From contig CM037871.1 of NCBI GenBank assembly GCA_021292105.1, positions 13,848,696-13,912,695 of the forward strand: a stretch of DNA of 64,000 nt. Reading direction: 5' to 3'. The notes below the pieces were generated by a model, which worked only from the letters and a program-made list of their open reading frames with translations, ran no database searches and had not been told where the DNA came from. This document shows positions 13,330-53,108 of the stretch, piece after piece; position 1 is the stretch's first letter, and every line of letters starts with the position of its first letter. The stretch is from Anadara kagoshimensis (Eukaryota > Mollusca > Bivalvia > Arcoida > Arcidae). Position numbers and translations under genes: made by a program.

Positions 13330-14150
13330 TTATATAACAATAAATTGAAACAGTCGCCATTTTATTATTGAATTATGGGTTCAAAAGCTCAAACTTTTAC
13401 TTGGCATCCGTCATTTTTGAAATTCAGCAAACTTGAAGTATGTCAAATTAAGCATGTTGCCAACTGTTACTAAAATTTGAAACCCCAAGTAACATTTTTT
13501 TGCATTGGTGCACTATAAATTTAAGTCGTTATTTTGTTTTTGGAATTATGGGTTCAAAAACTCAATATTAAACTGGTATCTGCCATTCGTGAATTTAGGA
13601 TCCTCAAATTATTTTAAATAAATCATGTTACCAACTTACTAAAATTTGAAACCCCTAGTAACATTTTTGCATTGGTACACCATTTATTTTAGCCGCCATT
13701 TTGTTTTTAGAATTATGGGTTCAAAAATTCAAAACTGACCTTGGTATCCACCATTTATGGATTCGGCATCCTTAAATTGTGTTAAGTAAATCATGTTACT
13801 AACTTTCACTCAAATTTGTCAACCCAAGTAACATTGTTTGCATTGTAACCATTAATTTTAGCCGCCATTTTGTTTTTGGAATTATGGGTTCAAAAACTCA
13901 AAATTGAGCTTGGTATCCACCATTTTTAAATTCAGCACACTCGAATTATGTTAAATAAATCATGTTACCAACTTTTACTAAAATTTGTCAACCCAAGTAA
14001 CATTTTTTGCATTGGTACACCATTAATTTTAGCCGCCATTTTGTTTTTGGAATTATGGGTTTAAAAACTCAAAATTGAGCTTGGTATCCGCCATTTTTGA
14101 ATTCAGCACCCTCGATTTTGTTAGAAAAGCATGTTACCAACTTTTACTAA
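13330..14150. repeat. ~170 bp minisatellite, five units
   Basis: The anchor ATTATGGGTTCAAAA recurs at 13372, 13545, 13712, 13881 and 14052, a period of 167-173 bp. Each unit carries GCCGCCATTTTGTTTTTGG, CTTGGTATCCACCATTTTT and CCAAGTAACATTTTTTGCAT. Units are diverged by substitution and small indels. No open frame is conserved through them. An inverted monomer occurs at 10.32-10.43 kb. Confidence 0.85.
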
Positions 14151-14905
14151 AAAATGCCGCTTCAAGTCACATTTTCTGAATTTGTTCCTAGTCTAAAGTA
14201 AATGTTTAAACTCAACCCTGTCTTCCAATCGCATACAACCGCCAAATTGCACGTAATGTTCAGTTGTACGATTTCACTGAGGTCAAATTAAAGTTCAATG
14301 CATCACTTTTCCAATCAGTGATCGGCTACCAAAGAAGCCATTTTGTTCATTGATCAAACATGACGCCCATTCAAGTGTCCAGTTAGATTTACGGATACAC
14401 GAACATAATATAGTCTGTAAAGGTGCGCTTAGAATAGCCACGTAAGTTCTCCTGTCTATAGGCGGAATATACAGTGAAACTTGTGGTACCGCCAATATGA
14501 AAACGGAGGACATTGGAGACATAAGACGATGATTTTGAGCGCTGCAGGACATTCAACACGATGATAATGTCAGGTAGGGACGGTTAGACCATGTATTTTG
14601 TTTATGTGTAAACTTTGTGAAACCAGACAAAGTGATTACTCGAAGTAATTCCGAGATTAGCGTGTATACAAGTCCAACTATGTTAACAGAATTATATTCT
14701 ATATCTGAATTGCATATGATCCGCACAAGTTGACGGTTGTCCTCTGATCTTCACACGTTTATTTTCACACAACTTATCCATTTTAAACTTCACAATATCA
14801 ATGACGGCACCTCAGTTTAAAAACTTGTGTGGTAGGATTTAACGTACCGCTTTGAATTCGTACCCATAATAAAGTAACCATTTCTTTACCAAATTATTTT
14901 TTTAG

Positions 14906-18654: not shown

Positions 18655-19057
18655 CAATGGGCTATTCCATTTAATAAGTGCGCCCCCCTAAGGAAGGCAT
18701 CATGTAGGGGGAGGGGGTAAATAATTCTTATGGAGGGGAGGGGGTTGAAATGTCTATGTAGGGTGGGTTAGAAATTCTGAAAAACGCATGTGGTGGACAG
18801 ACGTGTACTATGCAGAGGGGTAAGGAAGGCACCTGTTATGGAGGGGGTTGAAATAGGGAAAATTTCTATGTAGGGGGTATAAATTCTCAAAAAAACTATA
18901 TGTAGGGGGGGGGTATGGATGACAGATGTGTACTATGCGAAGGGGGGTAAGGAAGGCACCTGTTATGGAGGGGGGGGGTTGAAATGGGAAAAATTTCAAT
19001 GTATGGGGGGTATAAATTCTCCAAAACTTTATGTAGGGGGGTAATGGATGATAGATG
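18655..19057 (+). repeat. G-rich ~130 bp satellite, first block
   Basis: Repeats of the pattern ATGTAGGGGGGGTAT..GGATGACAGATG, AAGGAAGGCACCTGTTATGGAGGGGG and TTGAAATGGGAAAAATT, with G runs of 5-9. The same family forms 44.66-46.2 kb. Here the array is split by the LTR element, and the next bases of the unit (CGATGTATAGAGGTAAGG) resume at 28537. Confidence 0.85.
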
Positions 19058-19061
19058 GATA

Positions 19062-19918
19062 TATGGCCAGGCCAACTGTGGGAATTAGCTAAGCCCGGCC
19101 ACAGACACGAATGTGCATGCCATTCCTAGGGAATGGTGCACTGGATTGCATCCATTTTAAAAGATGCAATGTATAACTATAATAATAATCACTAAGCCTC
19201 CTTTACATTTTCTGCTATCTCTTTATTCATGCAAGAGCTTGGTGTTTATGGACCTCACTGGTCCTCTCTGGACCTACCTGGTCCTATCTAATTTACATTC
19301 CAATATACATTTCTTATATATCCTGTATGTTGACAACCAGAAAACATGAAAAATGGTTCCAATAACAAACATTATCCTTTGATGTTCTTTTCAATGCGTA
19401 ATATTTTTGACACTTTCAAAGGGATAAATAAATAAGTAAATAAAACATAAATAATTCAGATTAATGTGATAATGCCTAAGGGCCATTACAATGCATGTTG
19501 ACACAATAGCTTCTACTCCTAAAATGCCCATTTATCATAAAATTACATAAGTTTATATTTGATTATTTTAAGGAAAACATACTTTGTTCTGACATGAGAT
19601 TTTACTAATTTCCTGCTTAATTGAGATTTACAAAATCAGACTAAAAGGATAACTAGACAGGTGTTTATAAATCTTAATTATGACCAAATAGAGACAGGCT
19701 AATTGACTCAAGTTCATACCTGACAGACTTATACCAATGAGTTGTTTTCATTGCTGATTAACGGAAATAAAACATTTAATTAAAAATAAATATCTGACAA
19801 TCTATATATCTAAAGTTTATATTAAAAATACTTATAATTTCTGACTTAAAATATTTTTTTATTCAAAATGTTGAAATATATTTTCATATTCAAAAATGTT
19901 GAAATTTAGTCTGTGATA
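19062..19918 (-). repeat. 3' LTR of the Gypsy element (left side)
   Basis: 857 bp, with about three differences from the right LTR. Immediately inside it lies the polypurine tract. The 8 bp stem ATTGCATC/GATGCAAT is at about 19144-19170. Confidence 0.95.
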
Positions 19919-19921
19919 TAT

Positions 19922-19934
19922 GCCCCTCCTCTCA
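19922..19934 (-). other. Polypurine tract of the Gypsy element
   Basis: On the minus strand GAGAGGAGGGGC lies three bases upstream of the 3' LTR start. It is a purine run that would prime plus-strand DNA synthesis. A perfect hairpin (19936-19954) lies just upstream of it. Confidence 0.8.
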
Positions 19935-19935
19935 A

Positions 19936-19954
19936 AAATTTCGTCCCGAAATTT
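19936..19954. other. Perfect hairpin beside the polypurine tract
   Basis: AAATTTCG-TCC-CGAAATTT: an 8 bp stem with a three-base loop, two bases from the purine tract on the element's internal side. Confidence 0.7.
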
Positions 19955-20739
19955 AATAAAAGATTATTTGAGAATACTTCTCACACTCACACATGCTTGG
20001 GCCCAAGTCTGCATACACACACACATACTAATATGGGACATGACAAAACTGTTGAGAGCATGACAACATATTGATAATTTTATATGTTTAATCCATTAAG
20101 AATTACTTGAATACCACGAGACAGCATGAAAATTATATCTAAAAATAAAAATAACTATATACATCAGTAATGAATTTAGTATGGAAACTAATTCATTGGA
20201 ACATTATAAAATTTTGCTACCAATGAGCTAAAATTCATTAAGGATCAATACAGATCAAAACGATCATTGACTGCAGATAATGTTCTGCTTGAAAATATTA
20301 TACCGGTATTATTTCAAGTTGTGAAAACTTAACCATAAACAAATTATGTAGAATCTAAGATATGAAAAATGTAAAAACAAATTTTACTGTTAAAATCAGT
20401 GTATGATAAACATACTAAATGCATTTAGGTCAAGTAACAACCTGTTGTAAATGCTATAACGAAAAATAAATATAACACAAATTATCAACAGTGCTATGTG
20501 GATACACAATTGACTTTGTATTCCATTCTATAAAAAAAATTAATAATCAGTTGACAATAAAATCACATATGATGCTACACATATACATACACTTGCAATG
20601 AAATTGATAAACAGAATCTTGAAACTGGAAAATGAAACTTGCAAAGTATTTCTATCCAACACATGCCAGTGTCTTAGAAATATATGACATAATATATTAT
20701 AATTAATGAAAATAAAATGTCTGGTATGAATCTGGTTTT

Positions 20740-21173
20740 CTCATTCCAACACTACTTAGGAAAAGTCCGTGTTAATGAAAAAAATTATGTATATAAAACA
20801 ATAAACACTAAATGTTATGACGGCTTTCAGTCCAACACTACTGTTTTTTGCAGTCCGTGTTTATGAAATTGATCACGATATGACTAAAATTGATATGACT
20901 AAAATTATGTGTGTGTTTGAACACCGTGGATTTCACTCCAACACTACAAATGTCACTTTGTCCGTGTTTATGAAATGGAACATGACATAAAAATAAATAA
21001 ATAATGAGGTGAATGCTACACCTTTTGTATTTCACTCCAACACTACAAATGATACTTTGTCCATGTTTATGAAATAACCAAATATTGACTAAAATTGAAG
21101 ATACTATTATTATGTTCTGTCTTTCAGTCCAACACTCTTCTGTACATACTGTACGAATCCATGTTTATGAAAG
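20740..21173 (-). repeat. Five tandem stem-loop units with covarying stems
   Basis: Units lie at 20740-20781, 20825-20868, 20931-20975, 21030-21074 and 21121-21173, spaced 86-106 bp. Each has, on the + strand, TTTCA..TCCAACACT - variable stem - (G)TCCRTGTTTATGAAA. The outer arms TTTCA/TGAAA and AACAC/GTGTT pair. The inner stem differs in sequence yet always pairs: ACTT/AAGT, ACTG/CAGT, ACAAA/TTTGT, ACAAA/TTTGT, then TTC-GTAC/GTAC-GAA. The single-stranded joints (TCC, TA) are kept. The sense RNA of the element is the minus strand, where the mirror structure forms. Confidence 0.75.
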
Positions 21174-22336
21174 TTGTAAAGATTCCAATAAACTATTTTG
21201 GAAAGACTTGTGATTGTAAAACAGGGAATACATCATGAAAAAGATTTATCACACCCATGTTGACTGTGTGAGGAGTCCACCATCCATATTTAATTAGCAT
21301 CTGTGTGTCAATCCATTGGGGTCCAATTGCCTTCCAGTCTATAGAGTGCTATCCAGCTTCCTCCAATCCTTGAAATCTTCCTTGAATAAATTGAGATGTT
21401 CACAGACATATTTTTTTAAATATTCCTTGAAATTTTACTGAATATGTAAACACTATTAAAATTATAATAGAACACTTAATTTTCACTAAGCCGAACAATT
21501 TGATATTTACATTTATTTTAACTATTGAGTAAACACTGAATATTAAGCACACTTTCAAACAATATAACTTAAACTCCACTTTTAAAACACTATAATATTG
21601 CTTAAATTCCACTTTTGAATCAACATTTCACAAACTACTATGCATCACGAAATTTCATTAAAATTTCACTAAATTTCACTAAAATTTCACTAAATTTCAC
21701 TTTTTTTTTATCAAAACTTCTTTTGTGTAATCCGGACTGCTGGCTGCTGAGACAGTATTGTCCTAAATGCGTTGGTTGGTCCTTCAGTTGTACTTGAGAA
21801 GATTTCCACTCTGCTGAGTCCACCATTCATCTTCACAACCATGTATAAAGTAACACATCTGGAATATACAACTGAACAAACATGCGACCCCTAACCTTAA
21901 CAAAATTATAGACTTTATTTATCTTAGAACTTAAACAGCGAATTTAAACCTTGCATTGATAAAGAGGGGGAAATTATATGATTCTTTAGTGAAAACATTG
22001 AAAATATATAATAATTGAATGGACCAAGGGGAAATTTACCTTTCCCTTAATCTAGAAACAAGAAATCCTTATCAAAAGCCAGATTCACTGTGCTGTGTAC
22101 AGGATAACTCCTGTATTGACTCGCAAGCACTCTAGTGATTCTGGTTACTTATAACTACCTATTCTAAAAAAAAAAAGAATGAAAGGTAAATTTTAAATGC
22201 AAAAAAAAAAAGATGAAAAAAAGAAATTGACCAAGGGAGACAATTTTTTTGTCATGCTGAATAACTCAGAAAAAAAAACAACTTATTGATGAGGCGTCCC
22301 CCAACAAATGTTAGTTAAGCACTATGATACAGTTAT

Positions 22337-22723
22337 TCAGTATGAGAAATCATTTGCCTTAGTACATGTATTTTTGTTACTTTTTAAAAGCTTGCTTAGA
22401 TCGACGGACTTGCCCAAGGAAAAAAGAACGAGTAGATTTGGGTACTGAGAAGATTTCAGCCATTGCAATTCCCCGTTTTTCTTTATGAATACAGAGAACA
22501 AATGCTCTCCATTTTCATATTTATAGCCATTAATAAATGTTGAATGACCCTCCATGTTTGTCAGAAATGGGAGATAATTTTCATTTTTACAAATTGATAA
22601 AAGTTCATCAGGTGTTTTTGCATTAAATATGGACTTTTCTGTGTAAGTTAGATAAAATTGATCTGAACAAAATTGTTTTATATATTTCCAAATATTATTT
22701 GACCCTGGCACCCACCCATACAC
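22337..22723 (-). other. Open frame 3' of pol in the Gypsy element, unknown
   Basis: A 128-codon frame on the element's sense strand. It is rich in aromatic and Asn/Lys residues (YGWVPGSNNIWKYIKQF, EHLFSVFIKKNGELQW) with no transmembrane segment and no zinc knuckle. It could be a relic of an extra 3' gene, a displaced structural gene or chance. I do not recognise it. Confidence 0.3.
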
Positions 22724-22912
22724 TTTGGTTTGTCACTAAGTTGAAACTCAAATTTAAGTTGTTCCCTATGTCTAGGTGAGTACACCTGTTTAATTGCAAT
22801 TATTCTAGTGCTTTCTTTTCATTATCTGAACGAGTTTCATTCAGCACATCACTGCCTGTATGTTGAGCTCTACTCAACTCATGTAAACTTGGGTTTACAT
22901 CTGCTTTGTGCA

Positions 22913-23407
22913 TCACATTAACTTGATGTCCATGTAAAGGTGGACAATGACTGGCAGTACAGCATGTTTGATGCCCATAACTTTGACATTGAGATAAAGA
23001 TACTTGATGAGAATTATGATGCTAATATTACTACAATTTGTACATACTGAATGACTATTATTTTGGAAAATGCAATCTACCTGCTGCGCTGCAGGTTTTT
23101 CAAAGAATTTATGCTGGTTGCCTAAAGGCCTTTTTCTAGCTCTACCTTGCAGTGTTTGCTTTGAATGTATAAATTCAACCATTTCTTTTGGAACCTGGTG
23201 TCTAAGTACCCATGCAGTTTTACCATATGTCTTGACATTAGCTTTAATTTTGTACCACATTTTGCCACCACTGCGTTTAAATCTTAATATTTTTGCCACT
23301 AATTCAGGTGTTATATCTTTATCTTTTACAAAATCATTTTGATCTATTTGGCCCTGATTATTATTATTTTGTTGGGAGTGTTGGGTGACCACATTATTGT
23401 TGGGCAC
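22913..23407 (-). pseudogene. Region after integrase with chromodomain-like stretch
   Basis: A 164-codon frame lies downstream of integrase, after a Gln/Asn-rich linker. Residues about 32-80 (DITPELVAKILRFKRSGG, MWYKIKANVKTYGKTAWVLR) have the spacing of a chromodomain as found at the end of some Gypsy integrases: VEKIL..R...G...YLVKW.GY....W. The aromatic cage is imperfect, so the match is tentative. The remainder is not recognised. Confidence 0.5.
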
Positions 23408-23588
23408 TTGTTGTGTGTCTGGTAATGGCTGTGCATTTTGGGTTTGTTGAGTTTGATTTGCAGTTTGTTCTGCTGGTTGATGTTGCTGTTGTTGTTGAGG
23501 TATATTAGCGTCCCCTGTATCATCTATTTCTTCAGGGTCTTGATCATTCCTATCATCATCATTTATTTGTGGATGTTCAGGTCTTGTA

Positions 23589-24728
23589 TCAGGGCTTATA
23601 GGGTTTAAGCCTGTTGGAATGGATTAGGGATCGAACCAGCTTATTGTCAGACATACGCCTAAGTTTGTATGTGTAATTTGGCCCCGTTGCCACAATGTAA
23701 TATGGCCCTACCCATTTCTTTATATACTTTGGTGTCAAACCCTTAGGAGTTTTGGTGCAATATAACCACACCTGATCACCAGGAACCCACTCTGGTTCTT
23801 GCGTCTTTTTATCGTACTGCTCCGTATATTTTTGTTGTGCCCTAAGTACATTTTCTTTTGCTATTTCTCTTGCCATGTCAAGTTTTTGCAGTACATTTGC
23901 TAAATGAATTCTATTACTTTGTGGCAATGTCTGCTTTGGTATAAGTGTTATATCAATGGGTAAATTCATTTCCCTACCAAAAAGCAAAAAGAAAGGCGAG
24001 TGTTTAGTGGACTGAGTTGATGGTGTTGACCTGTATGCCATCATTATAGCTGGAAGTAGATCTGCCCAGTTATCTTGTTTGTCATTACAATAGGCCCTAA
24101 TTGATTGATGTAAGAAAGAATTTAATCTTTCACATGTTGCATTTGTCTGAGGATGCATACTAGACGTATAATAACGTGTGACATGAAAAAGTTCACACAA
24201 AGCTTTAATTAATTTAGACATAAAATTTTGTCCCCTATCTGAGACTAAAGTTCTTGGTGCACCATAACGTGTAAAGACATTATCAAACAAGACACTAGCA
24301 ACTTCCTCTGCAGATTGAGTTCTTAATGGTACTGCCTCACACCATTTTGAATAAGAATCAACAACTAATAAAATGTGTTGGAATCCCAACTTGGTTTTAG
24401 GCAGTGGACCTATTATATCCATATGCCACCTGTTAAATAAATCCTCTACTGGTAATGGATGAAGTGGGGCAGGTCGAGAGTGACTAAATCTCTTGATTTG
24501 CTGACAAATTTCGCAACTTTTGATATAATTTGTAACAGATTCATACATTTTTGGCCAATAAAATTTAGCCTTTAACATTTCAAAATTTCTCTCTTGTCCT
24601 TGGTGACTGCCACCTACTATACAGTCATGATAACTTTGTAACAGTTCTTCCCTTAAAACCCCAGGTACTGCTAATTGTCTAATAATATTTTCATTTTTAG
24701 GGACACCCCGTCTACGAATATAAAACAT
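23589..24728 (-). pseudogene. Gypsy integrase
   Basis: A 379-codon open stretch. The N-terminal zinc domain is H34-x7-H42...C72-x2-C75 (SYHDCIVGGSHQG; SCEICQQ). The DDE core is WHMDIIGPLP (Asp104), LVSDRGQNF (Asp164) and ATCERLNSF (Glu200). The C-terminal part has the GPY/F-type module (KKWVGPYYIVATGPNYTYKL) common to Ty3/Gypsy. The protein would insert element cDNA into host DNA with a 4 bp stagger, which agrees with the GATA duplication. Confidence 0.92.
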
Positions 24729-24775
24729 ATGAAAAAGTATGCCATCTAACAGTTCAAAAGTATCACTTTCAACTA

Positions 24776-26149
24776 CTATTTTCTAGCTATTTGGTCATCG
24801 TCTGGTAATACACCATCCCTCTTGTATCTGATCATGTTTCTGAAATCAGGACAATTTTCTTGAAGTTGCCGTATGTCAGGCCTATTAACTAATGTTATAT
24901 AATGTGCTTGCTGATTTTCATCAGCTTGCATTGCATTTACAGTAACCATATCTAAATCATATTCAAAATACACTGCAGTTAATTCTTCATTGATATCAGA
25001 ATGTTCAGTGTTACAGTTTTTGTTAGGAGAGTGATCTATAACAGAAACATGAACAGATTCAGTAGCATTGGGATAATCCCTACGTGATAATCCATCAGCA
25101 AATTTGTTCTGGGCACCTGCCTTATGCTGAATAGTAAAATTATATTCTTGTAACAATAGGGACCACCTTAAGAGACGCCCATTTTTATTTTTAATTTCCC
25201 TGAGCCACTTTAATGCTATGTTATCAGTATAGACAGTGAAATGGTTGTTTAATATATATGGTCTATACTCTTTAACAGCCTCTACTAGTGCTAGCCCTTC
25301 TTTTTCTGTGGAATGCCAACCTTTTTCTGAATTTCTTAATGCTCTGCCACCATATGCTATAGGATGGTCTGTACCATTGTCATCTTTCTGACTCAAAAAG
25401 TAGCCTATAGCTGTATCACTAGCATCAGTCGTTATGGAGAATGGTTTATTGAAATTTGGATATGCCAAAATAGGTGCATTTAACAAATGGGACTTAATAG
25501 TGTCAAAAGCTTGTTGACAACTTTCTGTCCAAATGTACTTTGCATTTTTGTATAACAATGCATTCAAAGGAGTACAAATTTTACTATAGCCAAATATATA
25601 TTTTCTATAATAATTAGCCATTCCCATAAACGATCTAAGCTTCTTTGGATTTTGTGGTGGTGGCAAAGTACTGATTGCACGTGTCTTATCTGGATCCACT
25701 TCAATACCAGACTTTGATAGAATGTGACCCAGATAAATGACACGTTTTGCTGCAAATTTACATTTAGCTGTTTGCAGCGTGAGGTTGGCTTCCCTCAGAC
25801 GTTGAAAAATGAGACTTAAGTGCTGCAGATGTGTTTGAAAATTTTCCGAAAAACAGAGTATGTCGTCAATATAAACTAGGCAAATACGCCAGTTAAGCCC
25901 TCTTAAAATTTTAGCCATCAGCATCTGAAAACTCATTGGTGCTGAAACCAAACCGAAAGGAAGCCTTTTGAAGCTAAATATACCTCTTTGAGTGATGAAA
26001 CCTGACTTATGTTTGGTTGTTGGATCTAGGGGGATCTGATGAAAACCACTAGCTAAGTCCAAAACTGAAAAATATTTGGGTTGAGCTTCAGAAACTGTGT
26101 CAACAACTTGTTGAAATGTAGGCATAGGAAATGCCATAGTTTCTACCAC
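24776..26149 (-). pseudogene. Gypsy pol, RT palm/thumb and RNase H
   Basis: A 457-codon open stretch. The RT palm shows FSVLDLASGFHQIPL (residues 27-41), FGLVSAPMSFQ (65-75) and the catalytic YIDD at 93-96. The thumb follows, with LGHILSKSGIEVDP. RNase H shows TTDASDTAIG (Asp242), TEKEGLALV (Glu284) and VYTDN (Asp309), ending with HKAGAQNKFADGLSR. The C-terminal ~80 residues form the linker toward integrase. All residues needed to recognise the family are visible, and the order RT-RNaseH-integrase is that of Ty3/Gypsy, not Copia. It is part of a broken pol. Confidence 0.92.
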
Positions 26150-26697
26150 TGCATTAAGTTTCGGAAGTCTAGAGCCATGCGGTAGCTACCATTTTTCTTT
26201 TTAACCATGACAACACCTGCATGCCATGGTGATGTTGATTCTTCAATAATATCATTTTGAAGAAGTTCATCAATTTGTTTATCCAGCTCTTTTTGTATGT
26301 GAGGTGGGTGACGGTAGGCTGGGGTGCTGACAGGTTTAGCATTACCAGTATTGATAGTATGATAGTACATATTAGTTTTGCCTATTTCAGAACTATCCTT
26401 GGCAAACACATCTCTATACTGGCCAATTAAATATAGCAATTGTTTTTGTTCATTTTGTTTTAAATCAGAGTTATCTAAACTTATTTTTAATTCTGAAGCA
26501 GCCTTTAAATATTCAGTCTCATTTTTCAAGTCTGTATAATTCTCTTTATCGTCGATTGAGAAAATATGCTCTTCAAAAATATCTTGAGCCTGTGCTAACA
26601 CAGTTTTCTGTTTAAGTGGGATTGGAGCTGCACTTGGGTTTAAAATCCTAAATAAACCAGTTTGATTTTGAACAGTTATTATACATTTGGCCCCCAC
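26143..26697 (-). pseudogene. Gypsy pol, RT N-terminal part
   Basis: This part carries the connector after protease and the first fingers motifs of a Ty3/Gypsy reverse transcriptase: AYRHPPHIQKELDKQIDELL, IIEESTSPWHAGVVMVKKKNG and YRMALDFRNL. These correspond to the P-x-R-R..V..EI..LL..GII..S.SP..SP.V.V.KKDG..R...DYR.LN pattern of the family. It belongs to the same fossil pol as the segments to its left. Confidence 0.85.
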
Positions 26698-26785
26698 TAA
26701 TTGCCTTTCAATTAAATTTGATGATGGTTCTAATATAACAGTTGAACCATCAGGATAATTACAAATGTCTACCTCAACAACAGTT

Positions 26786-27313
26786 TCAGAGTGAGGATGT
26801 AACAGTGTCTTTTTTCAAAGTGACTAAATTTGATTCATAATTATCCAGACTAGATACTTGCAATAAATCAGTGGCTGACATTCCACCGTGAATTTTGAAA
26901 ATGTTATCTTTAAAACAGATGTCAGCATTATTTTCTTTAAAAAAATCTATTCCCAAAATTAATTCTCTATGCAAACGTTTGAAAACAAGAAAAGTATGAC
27001 ATAAAGACAAGTTATTTATAGTAATTGTAATATCGACTTGTCCTAATGCACAATGCATTTCCCCACAAACTCCAAAAACATGAGAATAGCGTGTGGGGTG
27101 TAATTTTATATTTGGAAAGGCATGAAATAAAAAATCTTCCCTTATGCAGCTCGCAAAGGCCCCACTGTCTATAAGTGCATATACTTGACACTTGCCTACT
27201 TCAAGTAAAATACAATTACTTTTCATATGCACTTCTGTAAGGGCTGAAATATTTGGATATTCCTGATTTGGGGCATCGTTTGCACACAAAACTTTTGAAC
27301 ACGAGAATTCCAT
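26786..27313 (-). CDS. Gypsy aspartic protease region
   Basis: A 175-codon frame. The catalytic triad type motif LIDSGA is at residues 48-52 (Asp49), and the partner hydrophobic-glycine segment LILGIDFF is at about 118-125, as in retropepsins that cleave Gag-Pol polyproteins. The N-terminal 30 residues are not recognised and lack a zinc knuckle. The frame starts at an ATG that follows the leader directly, so the protease appears to be the first product encoded. It is part of the Gypsy fossil and is followed by the pol region on the same strand. Confidence 0.85.
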   Translation of the reverse strand: MEFSCSKVLCANDAPNQEYPNISALTEVHMKSNCILLEVGKCQVYALIDSGAFASCIREDFLFHAFPNIKLHPTRYSHVFGVCGEMHCALGQVDITITINNLSLCHTFLVFKRLHRELILGIDFFKENNADICFKDNIFKIHGGMSATDLLQVSSLDNYESNLVTLKKDTVTSSL

Positions 27314-27652
27314 TATGAATCAGTATTTGGGAGAAAAATTAAAGAAATATATATGATATTTATATGTACAAATTATACACATTCCTATACAGACATTAGA
27401 GGGTAATGTAAACGAGTAAACCTACCCTTAACATAACAGGTGTAAAAGGATACACCATTTAAAACAATATAAAGTTCAAAACAAACTAAAGCTTAAGCAT
27501 AATGAAAAATAAATTTATATACATTGAAAAGATACAAAAGATGGCCGCATGTACGAACAGTGTATATACAGAAAACATGGTTGACTCACCGTCCTGTAGG
27601 GCTGTTCTTGTCCGTTATCTGGTGCTGATGCCATCTGTCTGGGATCTTCACA
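27314..27652 (-). other. Gypsy leader without recognisable gag
   Basis: About 340 bp separate the primer-binding site from the protease frame. In most Ty3/Gypsy elements gag (capsid, nucleocapsid with CCHC knuckle) would lie here or upstream of protease. I see no CCHC motif and no long frame on the minus strand. Confidence 0.5.
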
Positions 27653-27670
27653 AACCGGATTCTGCCACCA
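27653..27670 (-). other. Primer-binding site of the Gypsy element
   Basis: Five bases inside the 5' LTR the minus strand reads TGGTGGCAGAATCCGG. This is complementary to a tRNA 3' end of the form ...CTGCCACCA, which is typical of tRNA-Leu. The tRNA identity is an inference from the last eight or nine bases only. Confidence 0.6.
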
Positions 27671-27675
27671 AAATC

Positions 27676-28532
27676 TATGGCCAGGCCAACTGTGGGGAAT
27701 TAGCTAAGCCCGGCCACAGACACGAATGTGCATGCCATTCCTAGGGAATGGTGCACTGGATTGCATCCATTTTAAAAGATGCAATGTATAACTATAATAA
27801 TAATCACTAAGCCTCCTTTACATTTTCTGCTATCTCTTTATTCATGCAAGAGCTTGGTGTTTATGGACCTCACTGGTCCTCTCTGGACCTACCTGGTCCT
27901 ATCTAATTTACATTCCAATATACATTTCTTATATATCCTGTATGTTGACAACCAGCAAACATGAAAAATGGTTCCAATAAAAACATTATCCTTTGATGTT
28001 CTTTTCAATGCGTAATATTTTTGACACTTTCAAAGGGATAAATAAATAAGTAAATAAAACATAAATAATTCAGATTAATGTGATAATGCCTAAGGGCCAT
28101 TACAATGCATGTTGACACAATAGCTTCTACTCCTAAAATGCCCATTTATCATAAAATTACATAAGTTTATATTTGATTATTTTAAGGAAAACATACTTTG
28201 TTCTGACATGAGATTTTACTAATTTCCTGCTTAATTGAGATTTACAAAATCAGACTAAAAGGATAACTAGACAGGTGTTTATAAATCTTAATTATGACCA
28301 AATAGAGACAGGCTAATTGACTCAAGTTCATACCTGACAGACTTATACCAATGAGTTGTTTTCATTGCTGATTAACGGAAATAAAACATTTAATTAAAAA
28401 TAAATATCTGACAATCTATATATCTAAAGTTTATATTAAAAATACTTATAATTTCTGACTTAAAATATTTTTTTATTCAAAATGTTGAAATATATTTTCA
28501 TATTCAAAAATGTTGAAATTTAGTCTGTGATA
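27676..28532 (-). repeat. 5' LTR of the Gypsy element (right side)
   Basis: 857 bp, beginning (minus strand) TATCACAGACTAAATTTC and ending CTGGCCATA. It would hold the Pol II promoter of the element. It is nearly identical to the left LTR. It contains an 8 bp stem ATTGCATC...GATGCAAT, also present in the other LTR. Confidence 0.95.
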
Positions 28533-28559
28533 GATACGATGTATAGAGGTAAGGTTATG

Positions 28560-28875
28560 CCATTCCCTACAATATTCTAATATGCATGCCAATACAAAAA
28601 GTTAATACTTTTGCAGATTATTAACTTTTTGGTATAGTTGTGCATGTGTGACCTTGACCTTTGAACCTATGACCTTCATTCATATATCAAAATGATGGTT
28701 AGGCCAATACCTACAATATTCTAATACATATATATACATGCCTATACAAAAAGTTAATAGCTTTACAGATAATTAACTATTTTGAATGGTTGTGCATCTG
28801 TGACCTTGACCTTTGAACCTATACCTTGATCTATGTATCAAAATGATCGTCATGTCAATACCTACAGTTAACTGA
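28560..28875 (-). repeat. Family E tandem repeat, inverted, about two units
   Basis: Minus-strand units with GGCATG..ATTAGAATATTGTAGG and TTCAAAGGTCAAGGTCAC, matching 16.99-17.46 kb. It follows directly after the remnant of the G-rich satellite unit (28537-28556). Confidence 0.75.
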
Positions 28876-29214: not shown

Positions 29215-29316
29215 AGCTCACCTGAGCACAAAGTGCTCAAGTGAGCTATTGTGATCAGTCTTTGTCCGTCGTGCGCCGTGCGACGTGCGTCGTGCGTCGT
29301 GCGTCAACTTTTCACT

Positions 29317-31794
29317 GTTAACACTCTAGAGGCCACAGTTTTTGTTATATCTTCATCAAACTTGTCCAGAACATTGTTCAGGTCAAAAGCTAAGTCAAGT
29401 TCATATATGGAATGTGTTGGATCAATAAGTAGGTCACTAGGTCAAATCAAAGAAAAACCTTGTTAACACTCTAGAGTCCATATTTTTTGTCCAATCTTCA
29501 TATAATTTGTCCACAACAACGTTCATGAACAAAGCAAGGTCAACTTCGTATATGGGTCATGGTGGATCAATAAGTAGGTCACTAGGCCAAATCATAAAAA
29601 AACCTTGTTAACACTCTAGAGTCCACATTTTTTGTCCAATCTTCATATAATTTGTCCAGAACGATGTTCATGACCAAAGCTAGGACAAGTTCGTATATGG
29701 GTTATGTTGGGTCAATAAGTAGGTCATTAGGTCAAATCATAGAAAAACCTTGTTAACGCTATAGAGTCCATATTTTTTGTCCAATCTTCATATAATTTGT
29801 CCAGAACGATGTTCATGACCGAAGCAAGGTCAAGTTCGTTTATGGCTTATGTTGGGTCAATAAGTAGGTCACTAGGTCAAATCATAGAAAAACCTTGTTA
29901 ACGCTATAGAGTCCACATTTTTTGTCCAATCTTCATATAATTTGTCCAGAACAATGTCCATGAACAAAGCTAGGTCAAGTTTATATATCGTTAATTTTGG
30001 GTCAATAAGTAGGTCACTAGGTCAAATCAAAGAAAAACCTTGTTAACACTATAGAGTCCATAGTTTTTGTCCAATCTTCATATAATTTGTCCAGAACGAT
30101 GTTCATGACCAAGGCAAGGTCAAGTTCGTATATGGGTCATGTTGGGTCAATAAGTAGGTCACTAGACCAAATCATAGAAAAACCTTGATAACACTATAGA
30201 GTCCATAGTTTTTGTCCAATCTTCATATAATTTGTCCAGAACGATGTTCATGACCAAAGCAAGGTCAAGTTCGTATATGGGTCATGTTGGGTCAATAAGT
30301 AGGTCACTAGGCCAAATCATAGAAAAACATTGTTAACACTATAGAGTCCATAGTTTTTGTCCAATCTTCATATAATTTGTCCAGAACAATGTTCATGACC
30401 AAAGCAAGGTCAAGTTCGTATATCGGTCATGTTGGGTCAATAAGTAGGTCACTAGACCAAATCATAGAAAAACCTTGTTAACACTATAGAGTCCATAGTT
30501 TTTGTCCAATCTTCATATAATTTGTCCAGAATGATGTTCATGACCAAACAAAAGTCAATTTCTTATATGGGTCATGTTGGATCCATAAGTAGGTCACTAG
30601 GCCAAATCATAAAAAAACCTTGTTAACACTCTAGAGTCCATATTTTTTGTCCAATCTTCATATAATTTGTTTAAAACGATGTTCATGACCAAAGCAAGGT
30701 CAAGTTCGTATATGGGTTATGTTGGGTCAATAAGTAGGTCACTAGGTCAAATCATAGAAAAACCTTGTTAACGCTATAGAGTCCATATTTTTTGTCCAAT
30801 CTTCATATAATTTGTCCAGAACGATGTTCATGACCAAAGCAAGGTCAAGTTCGTTTATGGCTTATGTTGGGTCAATAAGTAGGTCACTAGGTCAAATCAT
30901 AGAAAAACCTTGTTAACGCTATAGAGTCCATAGTTTTTGTCCAATCTTCATATAATTTGTCCAGAACAATGTCCATGGCCAAAGCAAGGTCAAGTTCATA
31001 TATCGTTAATTTTGGGTCAATAAGTAGGTCACTAGGTCAAATCAAAGAAAAACCTTGTTAACACTCTAGAGTCCATATTTTTTGTCCAATCTTCATATAA
31101 TTTGTCCAAAACGATGTTCATGACCAAAGCAAGGTCAAGTTCGTATATGGGTTATGTTGGGTCAATAAGTAGGTCACTAGGTCAAATCATAGAAAAACCT
31201 TGTTAACGCTATAGAGTCCATATTTTTTGTCCAATCTTCATATAATTTGTCCAGAACGATGTTCATGACCAAAGCAAAGTCAACTTCGTTTATGGCTTAT
31301 GTTGGGTCAATAAGTAGGTCACTAGGTCAAATCATAGAAAAACCTTGTTAACGCTATAGAGTCCACATTTTTTGTCCAATCTTCATATAATTTGTCCAGA
31401 ACAATGTTCATGGCCAAAGCAAGGTCAAGTTCATATATCGTTAATTTTGGGTCAATAAGTAGGTCACTAGGTCAAATCAAAGAAAAACCTTGTTAACACT
31501 ATAGAGTCCATAGTTTTTGTCCAATCTTCATATAATTTGTCCAGAACGATGTTCATGACCAAAGGAAGGTCAAGTTCGTATATGTGTCATGTTGGGTCAA
31601 TAAGTAGGTCACTAGACCAAATCATAGAAAAACCTTGATAACACTATAGAGTCCATAGTTTTTGTCCAATCTTCATATAATTTGTCCAGAACGATGTTCA
31701 TGGCCAAAGCAAGGTCAAGTTCGTTTATGGGTCATGTTGGGTCAATAAGTAGGTCACTAGACCAAATCATAGAAAAACCTTGTTAACACTATAG
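29317..31794 (+). repeat. 145 bp core repeat array, left block (17 units)
   Basis: Each unit runs from GTTAACACTCTAGAGTCCAT through TTTTTGTCCAATCTTCATAT and GGTCAATAAGTAGGTCACTA. GTTAAC starts at 29317, 29462, 29607, 29752, 29897 and so on to 31782, exactly 17 x 145 bp. The spacing is therefore without net indels. Short open frames on both strands follow from the repeat and are not genes. Confidence 0.95.
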
Positions 31795-34378: not shown

Positions 34379-36548
34379 TTTTTTTTTTTAATCTTTTTTT
34401 ATTGCTTTTCAAATATAGAAACAAATACACCTTTCACTCACTCATTCATACTGGATCAGAAATTTTCTCTCACAGCTAGTTTATTTACAAATAAATGCCT
34501 CAGTTGTTTGAAGCTTGAAAAAAGATTAAACTGAATAAATAAGTCATAATCAAAGACGATTTAACTATATAATATTTCACATAAATTTCTTGAACATTTT
34601 GAAATATGTGTCTCATTAAGTCATCAAGCTTCAAACAATTGAACCATAGGCAAATATCTACATATACAACAGCTCTATGTCAAGTCTTGTTACAAAAACT
34701 ATATACATGTATATATACAATTTAAATCAATAAATAAATAAAAATAAATAAATAAATAAATAGAAAAAAGGTTATCAAAGAGGCTCATCATGAAATAGAA
34801 CTTAAATTAAAAAAAAGAATATTATTTTTGTTTTCATATCAGATATTTTATACATGACAGCATTAAATACAACTTCATAGAACTGTAGTAAATAAAGCCT
34901 TTATTTAGATGTTTAATGACATAAAGGCAATGACACTAAAACACTACTGACAGGTAAGCTATACAAAAGGTCTCACTTATTGGTAATTGTAAATTAATTG
35001 TGTAAACTTCACACAATAAATATAAAATAACATTATCAAATATGTGATAAGTGTTTAACAATTGTGGTGTTTTTTGCTATATATTATTTTATCTTTTGGT
35101 TTGGTTTATATGGAGGGGGGGGGGGGTAAATAAAAGGTTGATATACTTGAGCCATTTAATTTTAATGATTATAAAGTATTGTTCTAAAACAAAACATTAT
35201 ACCTAATCAAATAATCTGTTAAAGTTTGACCATCTTTCTTGAAATTTGTTGTAATCACAATTTTTATAGTATATATATTTTTCTTGTCTGTATTATATTT
35301 CTATTTCTTTTTGTACAACACTAATAATGGGCCTACAATTCTTCAATCTTTGATTGTAAATATGAAATTTGCAAAGGCATAAAATTAAATTAAACACTGA
35401 ATATTTCTTCCCTTTCTTACCAAAGACAACAGTTTCAGAATCAATATTCAAGTTTATATTTAATTTTTCCTTGACCCAATGAAAAATATCATTCCAGTAT
35501 TTTTGGATAATGTAACATCCCCAATACATATGCAAAATGGTTTCTTGTTGATGCTTACAGAAAGTACAGGTCTGACTTGTTGTAATCCCAATTTTGAATA
35601 GGAATTTATTGGTACTAATAATTCTATGGTTAATGCGAAATTGAAACCATCTAAGTTTTATGTCATTTGAAAATTTCATGGAATAAATGTATGTGTTTTT
35701 CCACCAGTTATTTGATTTTTTTATTCCCAAATCTGTTTCCCATTTCGGTTCTGCCTTGCTTTTAATGTTCAGTTTCTTAATAAATGAATCATAAATATTT
35801 CTGTTGCCTTTTTCATTTGATCTGATTAAATATATATATTCAGGGCAATAGGAACGAATACAAGTGTTTTGTTGTTTCAGAACATTCCATTTTTCAATTA
35901 TAGACATTTTTAAACCTTGAAATATAGTTATGGGTGGTCGAATATTATACTTCAATGAGAAAGATTCATAATCCATAAACCATCCTGTATCATCAAACAG
36001 ATCACATATAAGATGTATACCCTTTTCATACCATGTATTATACATCACCGGTTTATTTCCTACAAGTATGTCACTATTATACCATAAAGGTTGATATAAA
36101 ATATGTTTTTGACTTATATGTATTGTATGAATGACGTCGTGTAAGTTAAGAAATACCTCTTTCCAAAATAAATTTTTACATTCTCTACTCAGTTTGTTAA
36201 AAAATTTATCCCCAAATTGAAACATTTTACATTCATCAGTTGAGAGAGTTTGGAAGAGTATATTTTTCAATGACACTTCTTGCTGTGTTTCATTAAGAAT
36301 TTTTCTAACCCATGTTAATTTCAAAGATTTAATAAATGACCCTATATGTATCATTCTGCATCCCCATGTCCATAATCCTGTATCATTTTCTGTCTAGCTA
36401 TTTTGTCCCCTTTATTTCCCCATATATACTGAAATATTAATTGTTCTAATTTCTTCAAGATTGAAACATCTGGTGAAGGGAGGCTTTGAAAGAGATGGGT
36501 TAATTTAGGAACCAGGACTGACTTAACAACAGTTACTTTACCTAAAGT
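34379..36548 (-). mobile_element. 5'-truncated L1-like LINE with 12 bp target duplication
   Basis: GTCTTTCAAGTT is duplicated at 34367-34378 and 36549-36560. In minus orientation the copy starts inside ORF2 (TLGKVTVVKS) and ends in a poly(A) tail next to the left duplication. This is a textbook target-primed insertion with 5' truncation. Microsatellite-like AAAT runs and a G13 tract lie in the 3' untranslated part. It is nested in element C, which is nested in the 145 bp satellite, so it is younger than both. Confidence 0.9.
35293..36548 (-). pseudogene. LINE ORF2 C-terminal region (post-RT and zinc domain)
   Basis: Two adjoining open stretches, broken near 36354. The first holds the end of the RT/thumb-like region (LGKVTVVKSVLVPKLTHLF, FQYIWGNKGDKIARQKMIQD). 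The second, 353 codons, holds the long L1-type C-terminal region (SLKLTWVRKILNE, LYQPLWYNSDI, WFQFRINHRIISTNKFLFK). It ends with the Cys/His cluster CTFCKHQQETILHMYWGC of L1/Tx1-type ORF2 proteins. The apparent ATG at 36575 lies in flanking sequence outside the LINE. The RT catalytic core is absent because of 5' truncation. Confidence 0.85.
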
Positions 36549-51608: not shown

Positions 51609-53108
51609 TTAGTTTTTAATCCATGTCATTTTAAGTGCTCGACAAAAAGATTGTATATGAGGCACCCGAAGTCCGCCATGTTCCAGGTCGTTATACATAA
51701 TATTTCGTTTAAGTTTATCTACTTTGCCATTCCAGATGAAGTTAAAAATGTGTGATTGTATTTCATCTGTTATTCTTTTAGGGGGATCTGGAAGTGCCAT
51801 GAAAGTTTGAATCAATATTGGTAATGCGATTGTTTTCACCACTGTGACTTTTCCCATTAAGGACAAATTTCTATAAGACCAGTTTTTGAGAACGTTTTTA
51901 AAAGAGGTAACCTTTTCAGTGTAATTCTCGAAATATATCGAGTCTGCTTGTAAATTATATTTTAGCCCTAGAAGTTTAAAAGATCCACTGTGATTCCATT
52001 TTAAACACTTTTTAGTTTGCAATTCTTCAATGCATCCCCTCCTGGCCCCAACCCACACAACCTCGGTTTTTTCAAAGTTTGCTCTCAAACCAGAACAGTC
52101 GCCAAAATCTTCAATTATTTTAATAGCAGAGTTAAGAGATTCAGAGTCATCGTCCAGCATAAGGCTGGTATCATCTGCATACTGTCCTATAATATATTCA
52201 GAATCATTTATTGTGATGCCTTTTATTTTAGGGTCTTGTTTAATTGTTGCACTTAATAACTCAGCGGATATGATGAAAAGATAAGGGGAAAGTGGATCAC
52301 CTTGTCTGACACCCCGTTGAATCTGGAAGAAACTAGAACAGTGACCGTTGTATTGAGTACAGCTTGTTATATCTGAATAAAAAGCAAGAAACTACTTGAT
52401 GATTGAGTTCCCAAAACCAAAGAATTTAAGTGAATTTTCAATAAAAGACCATTCAATGGAATCAAAGGCTTTTTCAAAATCAAGAAGAAGCAAAATACCT
52501 GGAATATTTTCTGTTTCTGTTTTTTCTAAAATGTCATATACCGACCTACTTGTCTCCCCAATAAACCTCCCTTTTATAAAGCCTGTTTGTGATTCACTTA
52601 TTATTGTATTAAGAACTGGTTTAATTCGGCTAGCAATTGCTGCTGATGCAATTTTATAATCTACATTCAGTAAGGAAATCGGCCTCCAATTTTGTAAGTA
52701 AAATTTTGACTTTCCCTCCTTAGGAATACATGTGATCACCCCCTGCCTTTGTGTAATAGAGAATTTACCATTATTATACCCATAATTTAATGATTTGACA
52801 ACAAATTCTCTAATATCATTCCAAAAAAATTTGTAAAATTCGATTGTAAATCCATCCATTCCTGGCGATTTTCCGTTTTTCATAAAATTCAAAGCCTTTG
52901 TACATTCGAGATCTGATAGTTCCCCTTCAAGTGCCACTGACTGTGTTTCATCAAGTTGATTTAAAAAGGCATTATTTTTATCAAAGAATGTGTGATTTTT
53001 ATCATTGCTCTGAAGGTTTTGGGATGTATATAAGGTTCTGTAAAAATCTCTTCGGGCATTTATTATATCAGACTGGCTATCCAATTCTGTACCATTATCA
53101 AGAATCAA
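51609..53108 (-). pseudogene. LINE ORF2 reverse transcriptase
   Basis: RT of an L1-like LINE. From 53108 the frame shows GKSPGMDGFTIEFYK, NWRPISLLNVDYKI, SQTGFIKGRFIGE and LLLDFEKAFDSIEW (first catalytic Asp). An in-frame TAG at 52389-52391 interrupts it, after which the same frame continues with FFQIQRGVRQGDPLSPYLF and the catalytic YADD at 52170-52181. Then come LRANFEKTEVVWVGARRG and LMGKVTVVKTIALPILIQTF, to a stop at 51609. It would synthesise cDNA at a nicked target. The enzyme core is complete in motif content but has this stop and further lesions downstream. Confidence 0.92.

Follow-up and report, generated by a model that had tools for sequence, protein, structure and literature searches.

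Why should a retroelement of the bivalve Anadara kagoshimensis carry a row of small hairpins whose inner arms change in sequence while remaining self-complementary? The question arises in the window, by which we mean the whole stretch of 64,000 nt that was analysed (assembly GCA_021292105.1, CM037871.1:13,848,696-13,912,695, forward strand). A first-pass annotation had described five tandem stem-loops there and attributed their compensatory changes to selection for structure in RNA or single-stranded DNA, a reading that the pairing and covariation reported below support. We consider it probable, at roughly 0.6, that the array is a cis-acting, multi-copy, protein-binding RNA element of the Gypsy element's own sense RNA.

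The host of the array is a Ty3/Gypsy LTR element on the minus strand of the window, with the following features in sense order:

27675-28535, minus strand: 5' LTR, identical to the 3' LTR at 857 of 861 positions
22913-27319, minus strand: pol-like reading frames, from Pfam matches and frames, spread over several frames in the window copy
26786-27319, minus strand: protease, by Pfam
24776-26149, minus strand: RT/RNase H, by Pfam
23589-24782, minus strand: integrase, by Pfam
22913-23623, minus strand: pol tail, with no Pfam match reaching its cut-off
22337-22732, minus strand: frame of 131 aa, with no Pfam match reaching its cut-off
19921-19933, minus strand: polypurine tract, sense GAGAGGAGGGGCA, adjoining the 3' LTR and assigned by position
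19059-19918, minus strand: 3' LTR, identical to the 5' LTR at 857 of 861 positions

The LTR pair and the order of protease, RT/RNase H and integrase are those of Ty3/Gypsy, and the array does lie in the 3' region of a Gypsy element, as had been proposed. The 131-aa frame is probably the tail of pol and not a separate gene, because in two other copies of the family its match falls within a longer open frame whose length equals that of the integrase frame of the copy (C11, 803 aa; C8, 635 aa). A scan of frames of at least 60 aa between the 5' LTR and the protease (27319-27675, minus strand) gave no gag-like frame and no Pfam gag match, and no env-like frame was recognised in the element. Since the remaining Gypsy features are present, we take the window copy to be a defective or gag-less Gypsy member. 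The same short layout recurs in copies C11, C8 and C3, and with a further deletion in the 79% copy C13, so any loss of gag is old.

The array itself occupies the 3' non-coding region. Read in sense, it comes after pol and its probable tail, which runs to ~22.4 kb, and ahead of the polypurine tract:

21119-21175, minus strand: u5, hairpin unit, first in the sense RNA
21027-21077, minus strand: u4, hairpin unit
20928-20978, minus strand: u3, hairpin unit
20822-20871, minus strand: u2, hairpin unit
20737-20783, minus strand: u1, hairpin unit
20646-20683, minus strand: u0, degenerate sixth unit, with neither inner stem nor 5' GGA

The five units of ~45 bp reported earlier were thus recovered at 20737-21175 with the motifs and inner arms that had been quoted, and successive starts from u1 to u5 are 85, 106, 99 and 92 apart. 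Two details of that description need correction: it missed the sixth unit at 20646-20683, and it put the array just before the polypurine tract, from which it is actually ~0.7-1.2 kb away. We built a covariance model, R1, from eight sequences, namely the five window units and three from C13, with u0 left out. R1 matches u0 at 23.5 bits (E 0.005), and matches the sixth unit in four other copies as well.

A typical unit of ~45 nt reads, in sense RNA, UUUCA-UA-AACAY-GGA-(inner stem and loop)-UA-GUGUU-GGA-N-UGAAA. Its three helices are the outer stem (UUUCA/UGAAA), the central helix of 5 bp, which hardly varies (AACAY/GUGUU), and the variable inner stem; internal loops of similar make-up, with UA or a variant of it opposite GGA, border the central helix at both ends. 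Most often the 5' strand is UA-AACAC-GGA and the 3' strand UA-GUGUU-GGA. GGA (TCC on the plus strand) is present on both sides in all eight units of the model; in the sibling alignment, A4, the 5' GGA is kept in 13 of 14 distinct rows and the 3' GGA in all 14, the exception being the degenerate sixth unit. The joints had been called conserved and likened to protein recognition sites, which holds for GGA, invariant in the five full units, and less so for UA: both loops are exactly UA/GGA in three of the five window units (u2, u3 and u4) and near-identical in the other two, where UU replaces UA in the outer loop of u1 and GA replaces it in the inner loop of u5. In u1 the extra pairs CAUU/AAUG take the place of the outer loop, and this is the CATT/AATG swap that the first-pass annotation had seen.

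The inner segment pairs in spite of its variation. All four inner-stem pairs show changes on both sides with pairing kept, and 92.5% of 120 cells pair in the eight-unit alignment; sliding the partner by one to three columns lowers this to 35-43%. The covariation score for these units is 0.357 against 0.148 in shuffled alignments, a value reached by none of 500 shuffles, and 14 cells are changed on both sides where shuffles give 5.6. An alignment of sibling units, drawn from 25 matches in five of the 11 sibling stretches searched and reduced to 14 distinct rows, has 91.7% of cells paired after fitting to the structure, and again none of 500 shuffles reaches its score. Counting the pairs that are changed on both sides is less selective: 107 of 500 shuffles reach the count for the eight units and 20 of 500 that for the sibling alignment. 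Pair 22-35 is unpaired in four of the eight rows.

The earlier proposal of an R-scape test was followed with a similar, tree-based null that preserves the number of changes per branch, and the outcome was mixed. Inner pair 20-37 reaches E 0.013 in alignment A3 and E 0.008 in A4, its neighbour comes only near significance (E 0.13 and 0.057), and the remaining 13 pairs have E >0.1, mostly for want of variation; covariation is uninformative for the outer and central helices because these hardly vary. The summed stem score exceeds all 60 null replicates in both A3 and A4, and several of the top-ranking column pairs are non-stem pairs that score as high as stem pairs. Folding energies agree with pairing: on the sense strand the inner hairpins fold better than shuffled sequences in all five units (p 0.005-0.036; combined 7e-6, or 5e-5 when the near-duplicate u4 is dropped). 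A cruder run-length test gives p 0.001-0.04 for u1-u4; u5, with its offset and bulged stem, is at p 0.44. The fold of the whole 541-nt array is unexceptional (z -1.4 sense, -1.1 antisense).

The first-pass annotation had left the structure to RNA or single-stranded DNA and had advised folding each strand separately; by folding, the sense RNA comes out ahead of the antisense. Antisense inner hairpins reach p <0.05 in two of five units (combined 1e-3), and whole units have the lower folding energy on the sense strand in four of five. On the sense strand the mean z is -2.07 for windows over the units (n=7) and -0.22 for the rest of the 3' region (n=256); on the antisense strand the two means are -0.99 and -0.23. 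Mann-Whitney values for these are only a guide because the windows overlap. The strand call depends mainly on folding energy, because wobble counts balance. In u4 and u5 the last central pair is U.G on the sense strand and would be A.C on the antisense, and across all rows sense-only and antisense-only wobbles number 4 and 3 (eight rows) or 7 and 7 (14 rows); we therefore rejected G.U wobble as proof of strand, and by this measure the strand is unsettled.

The array was sought at the same place in sibling elements, as had been advised. A DNA search of the 1.115-Gb genome found it at a minimum of six loci: the window, C8, C3, two on C4 (C4a and C4b) and C13. Five other family copies thus carry it, three with all units, one truncated and one old (~20% diverged). 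C8, C3 and C4a have the full set of five plus the sixth, although u5 of C3 is damaged; C4b is truncated and retains u1-u3 and u0; C13 retains three recognisable units. A seventh copy, C11 (L071, C11:4267500-4273400), has 99% integrase identity and has lost the array stretch, its pol tail being joined to the middle of the 3' LTR. We rejected it as a sibling lacking the array by design: the deletion (window 19327-22126) runs on through the polypurine tract and into the 3' LTR, which makes C11 uninformative on the need for the array.

The possibility that the units are a generic genomic repeat, raised at the outset, finds no support in exact-pattern searches, whose matches concentrate in the six loci. 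Of the genome's mismatch-free occurrences of two half-site patterns (56 and 57), the six loci account for 24 and 20, respectively, and nowhere else in the whole genome do two exact half-site matches lie within 10 kb of each other. One further pattern has 24 of 28 matches in the six loci and four elsewhere (reversed-pattern control, nine), and a two-part pattern has 18 of 23 in the six loci and five elsewhere, three of them in a C1 tandem repeat (control, one). By exact patterns, then, no related hairpin cluster exists in the 1.1-Gb genome outside the six loci, and the array is confined to its Gypsy family; the search with one mismatch covers the matches listed, and diverged arrays could be missed.

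Several outlying matches were rejected as relatives: the three on C1, part of an unrelated tandem repeat where R1 matches just the core (15.7-17.6 bits); those on C6 and C7, at 13.9 and 15.2 bits; that on C14, which R1 does not match; and 50 IMG/VR stretches with a single match each, no array and no integrase relative. R1 has no match at 28 integrase loci (L041-L070 minus L043 and L049), which end 1.5 kb past the integrase match, short of the expected place of the array, so their silence is uninformative. For sibling families given as loci, integrase identity is 44-59%. A scan for the symmetric motif in the window and sibling loci returned 12 distinct sequences, of which 11 are array units and one is a weak occurrence ~200 nt upstream of u5. 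Recurring 10-mers in sibling 3' flanks amount to one unrelated family, in L063.

What might such an array do? The first-pass annotation had offered packaging, RNA stability, export or translation control as candidate roles. We infer that the hairpins bind a protein and serve a step in the life of the RNA. The stems would be scaffolds and the two GGA joints of each hairpin the recognised surface, because the inner stem may change if it stays paired and the GGA joints may not. Five hairpins and the worn sixth would offer about ten binding surfaces to an RNA-binding protein, and the five copies suggest avidity. Because the Gypsy element acts via its full-length RNA, the step served most likely concerns how the full-length genomic RNA is handled; nuclear export has a slight edge over capture by Gag.

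The export reading, which we hold tentatively, is that the hairpins recruit a host export factor for unspliced genomic RNA in the manner of the type-D retroviral constitutive transport element (CTE). The array would then work like a retroviral CTE, and the position 3' of pol and ahead of the 3' LTR is consistent with this. The CTE of MPMV and SRV-1, too, is a structured, non-coding RNA located towards the 3' genome end, and its internal loops are twofold-symmetric (PMC4330390 and PMC7551171, in part); the predicted pseudo-twofold loops of the Gypsy units may be comparable. However, the CTE is one long hairpin of ~130-175 nt according to parts of the same sources, whereas the array is five short tandem hairpins of ~45 nt plus a worn sixth, and the two are likened by description. 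Rfam 15 gave eight weak matches in 18900-28700 and none at the gathering score, a CTE model in Rfam not being a given; membership in SNORD44, which overlaps the array on the plus strand, was rejected at 20.7 bits against the 40 required. A donor-like GGTGAGT follows the 5' LTR in the window, C3 and C8, so unspliced RNA may need help in leaving the nucleus; splicing is putative, though, with GGCGAGT at this site in C13 and no recognised env-like frame. Gypsy elements do need some solution, and Cer1 required a special protein, CERV (PMC10309623, in part).

Other retroelement export elements offer parallels of description. Rous sarcoma virus and avian direct-repeat (DR) elements share with the array the use of repeated cis elements, theirs tied to transport of unspliced RNA (PMC3856414, in part); they are 115-nt direct repeats flanking src, whereas the array is a row of small hairpins. 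The avian retroviral 3' region also affects packaging, going by a title cited in PMC3856414. If the export reading holds, the array would join SERV-K/MER11 among the RNA export elements borne by retroelements (PMC11379458, in part), and RTE and MusD are RNA transport elements by titles referenced in PMC11379458.

Capture by Gag, in which the GGA joints would bind nucleocapsid zinc knuckles and a family with no recognised gag would be packaged by the Gag of another family, we regard as only slightly less likely than export. Nucleocapsid prefers unpaired G, which suits the joints, although their unpaired state is predicted by the fold model only and the donor Gag is hypothetical. With no recognised gag and a short layout common to C11, C8, C3 and C13, the family may depend on Gag supplied in trans. 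Packaging of yeast Ty3 has contributions from UTR and POL, but the major packaging signals known are at the 5' end (PMC4974528 and PMC11381356, in part).

It is improbable that the units are tandem quasi-palindrome duplicates without function, similar by recent descent and kept self-complementary by hairpin-templated mutation, a mechanism that operates during reverse transcription. Tandem repeats are common in the 3' UTRs of plant Ty3/gypsy Tat elements (PMC7004042, in part), and the family has few copies, mosaic in makeup, which speaks for active recombination. The mosaic is plain in bins of 250 bases: between the window and C8 or C3, pol differs at 0-3 positions per bin over 23750-27250 and at 0-1 from 22250 to 23250, the exception being the bin at 23250, with 13 and 11 differences. 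Divergence in the LTR, the leader and the 3' non-coding region is ~1-14% per bin, which points to probable recombination between subfamilies. Near-identical pol with diverged ends therefore gives an internal control for constraint on the units.

In the diverged part, the window and C8 differ at 1 of 293 unit positions, 14 of 228 spacer positions and 130 of 2113 flank positions (Fisher 7e-5 against spacers, 9e-7 against spacers plus flanks). The units are likewise conserved against spacers relative to C4b (0/199 in units, 13/180 in spacers), C4a (4/290 and 14/211) and C3 (7/289 and 17/216); these comparisons are not independent because all share the window branch. Unit-specific constraint is absent in some other pairs: C8 and C4a differ at 0 of 212 spacer and 3 of 292 unit positions, and C8 and C3 are equally variable in units (7/290) and flanks (49/2102). 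C8 and C13 differ at 43 of 234 unit positions against 52 of 148 in spacers and 287 of 1323 in flanks (units against flanks, p 0.30). The u1-u0 spacer has no substitutions over 20625-20774, with eight columns gapped in some copy, so the conserved block extends beyond the hairpins. The sample for constraint, as for covariation, is a few copies from one genome. Templated repair, moreover, would pair the joints too, yet GGA stays opposite UA or its variant in the full units.

Least probable is an enhancer or insulator array of DNA-level binding sites, each hairpin being an inverted-repeat site: the outer and central motifs hardly change in sequence, and the Drosophila gypsy insulator is an array of protein sites in a Gypsy element, but a double-stranded site needs no inner arms that change yet stay complementary, and sense RNA folds better than antisense.

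The protein-binding RNA element that we favour is of an already known kind, the structured RNAs that act in cis from the 3' region of retroelements, and we file the pattern of five hairpins as a variant of it. Among the literature matches listed, no title or opening of an abstract describes a Gypsy element with such a row of hairpins. The tandem 3'-UTR repeats of plant Tat/Ogre elements are hypervariable and seed satellites (PMC7004042, in part), and the Gypsy array is unlike them because its five to six structured units are conserved and, by exact patterns, confined, none being seen amplified elsewhere. A bolder view strikes us as doubtful, namely that the pseudo-twofold hairpin row is an undescribed class of retroelement RNA, a multivalent signal for export or capture with which a Gypsy lineage that has no recognised gag spreads via the particles of another family. 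How unspliced genomic RNA of Ty3/Gypsy elements leaves the nucleus and enters particles is poorly defined, and the packaging signals of Ty3 are described as lacking precise definition (PMC11381356, in part). A compact, repeated and conserved motif with invariant GGA joints is a concrete bait for its protein, and a family with no recognised gag that retains the array would make help in trans testable.

The window holds further features of note. Near ~27588 (minus strand), past the presumed primer site, a short frame opening with ATG leads into the donor-like GGTGAGT, and this frame diverges strongly between subfamilies, including a six-base difference. A G-rich imperfect tandem repeat, with 131 bp between two copies, adjoins the 3' LTR at 18680-19050; another tandem repeat, with a period of ~169 bp, lies at 13340-14185, and a tandem satellite with a 145-bp period (16 register copies of the 300-nt reference) at 29316-31790. 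Further fragments related to reverse transcriptase (RVT_1; zf-RVT) occur at 52392-53108 and 35293-36354 (minus strand).
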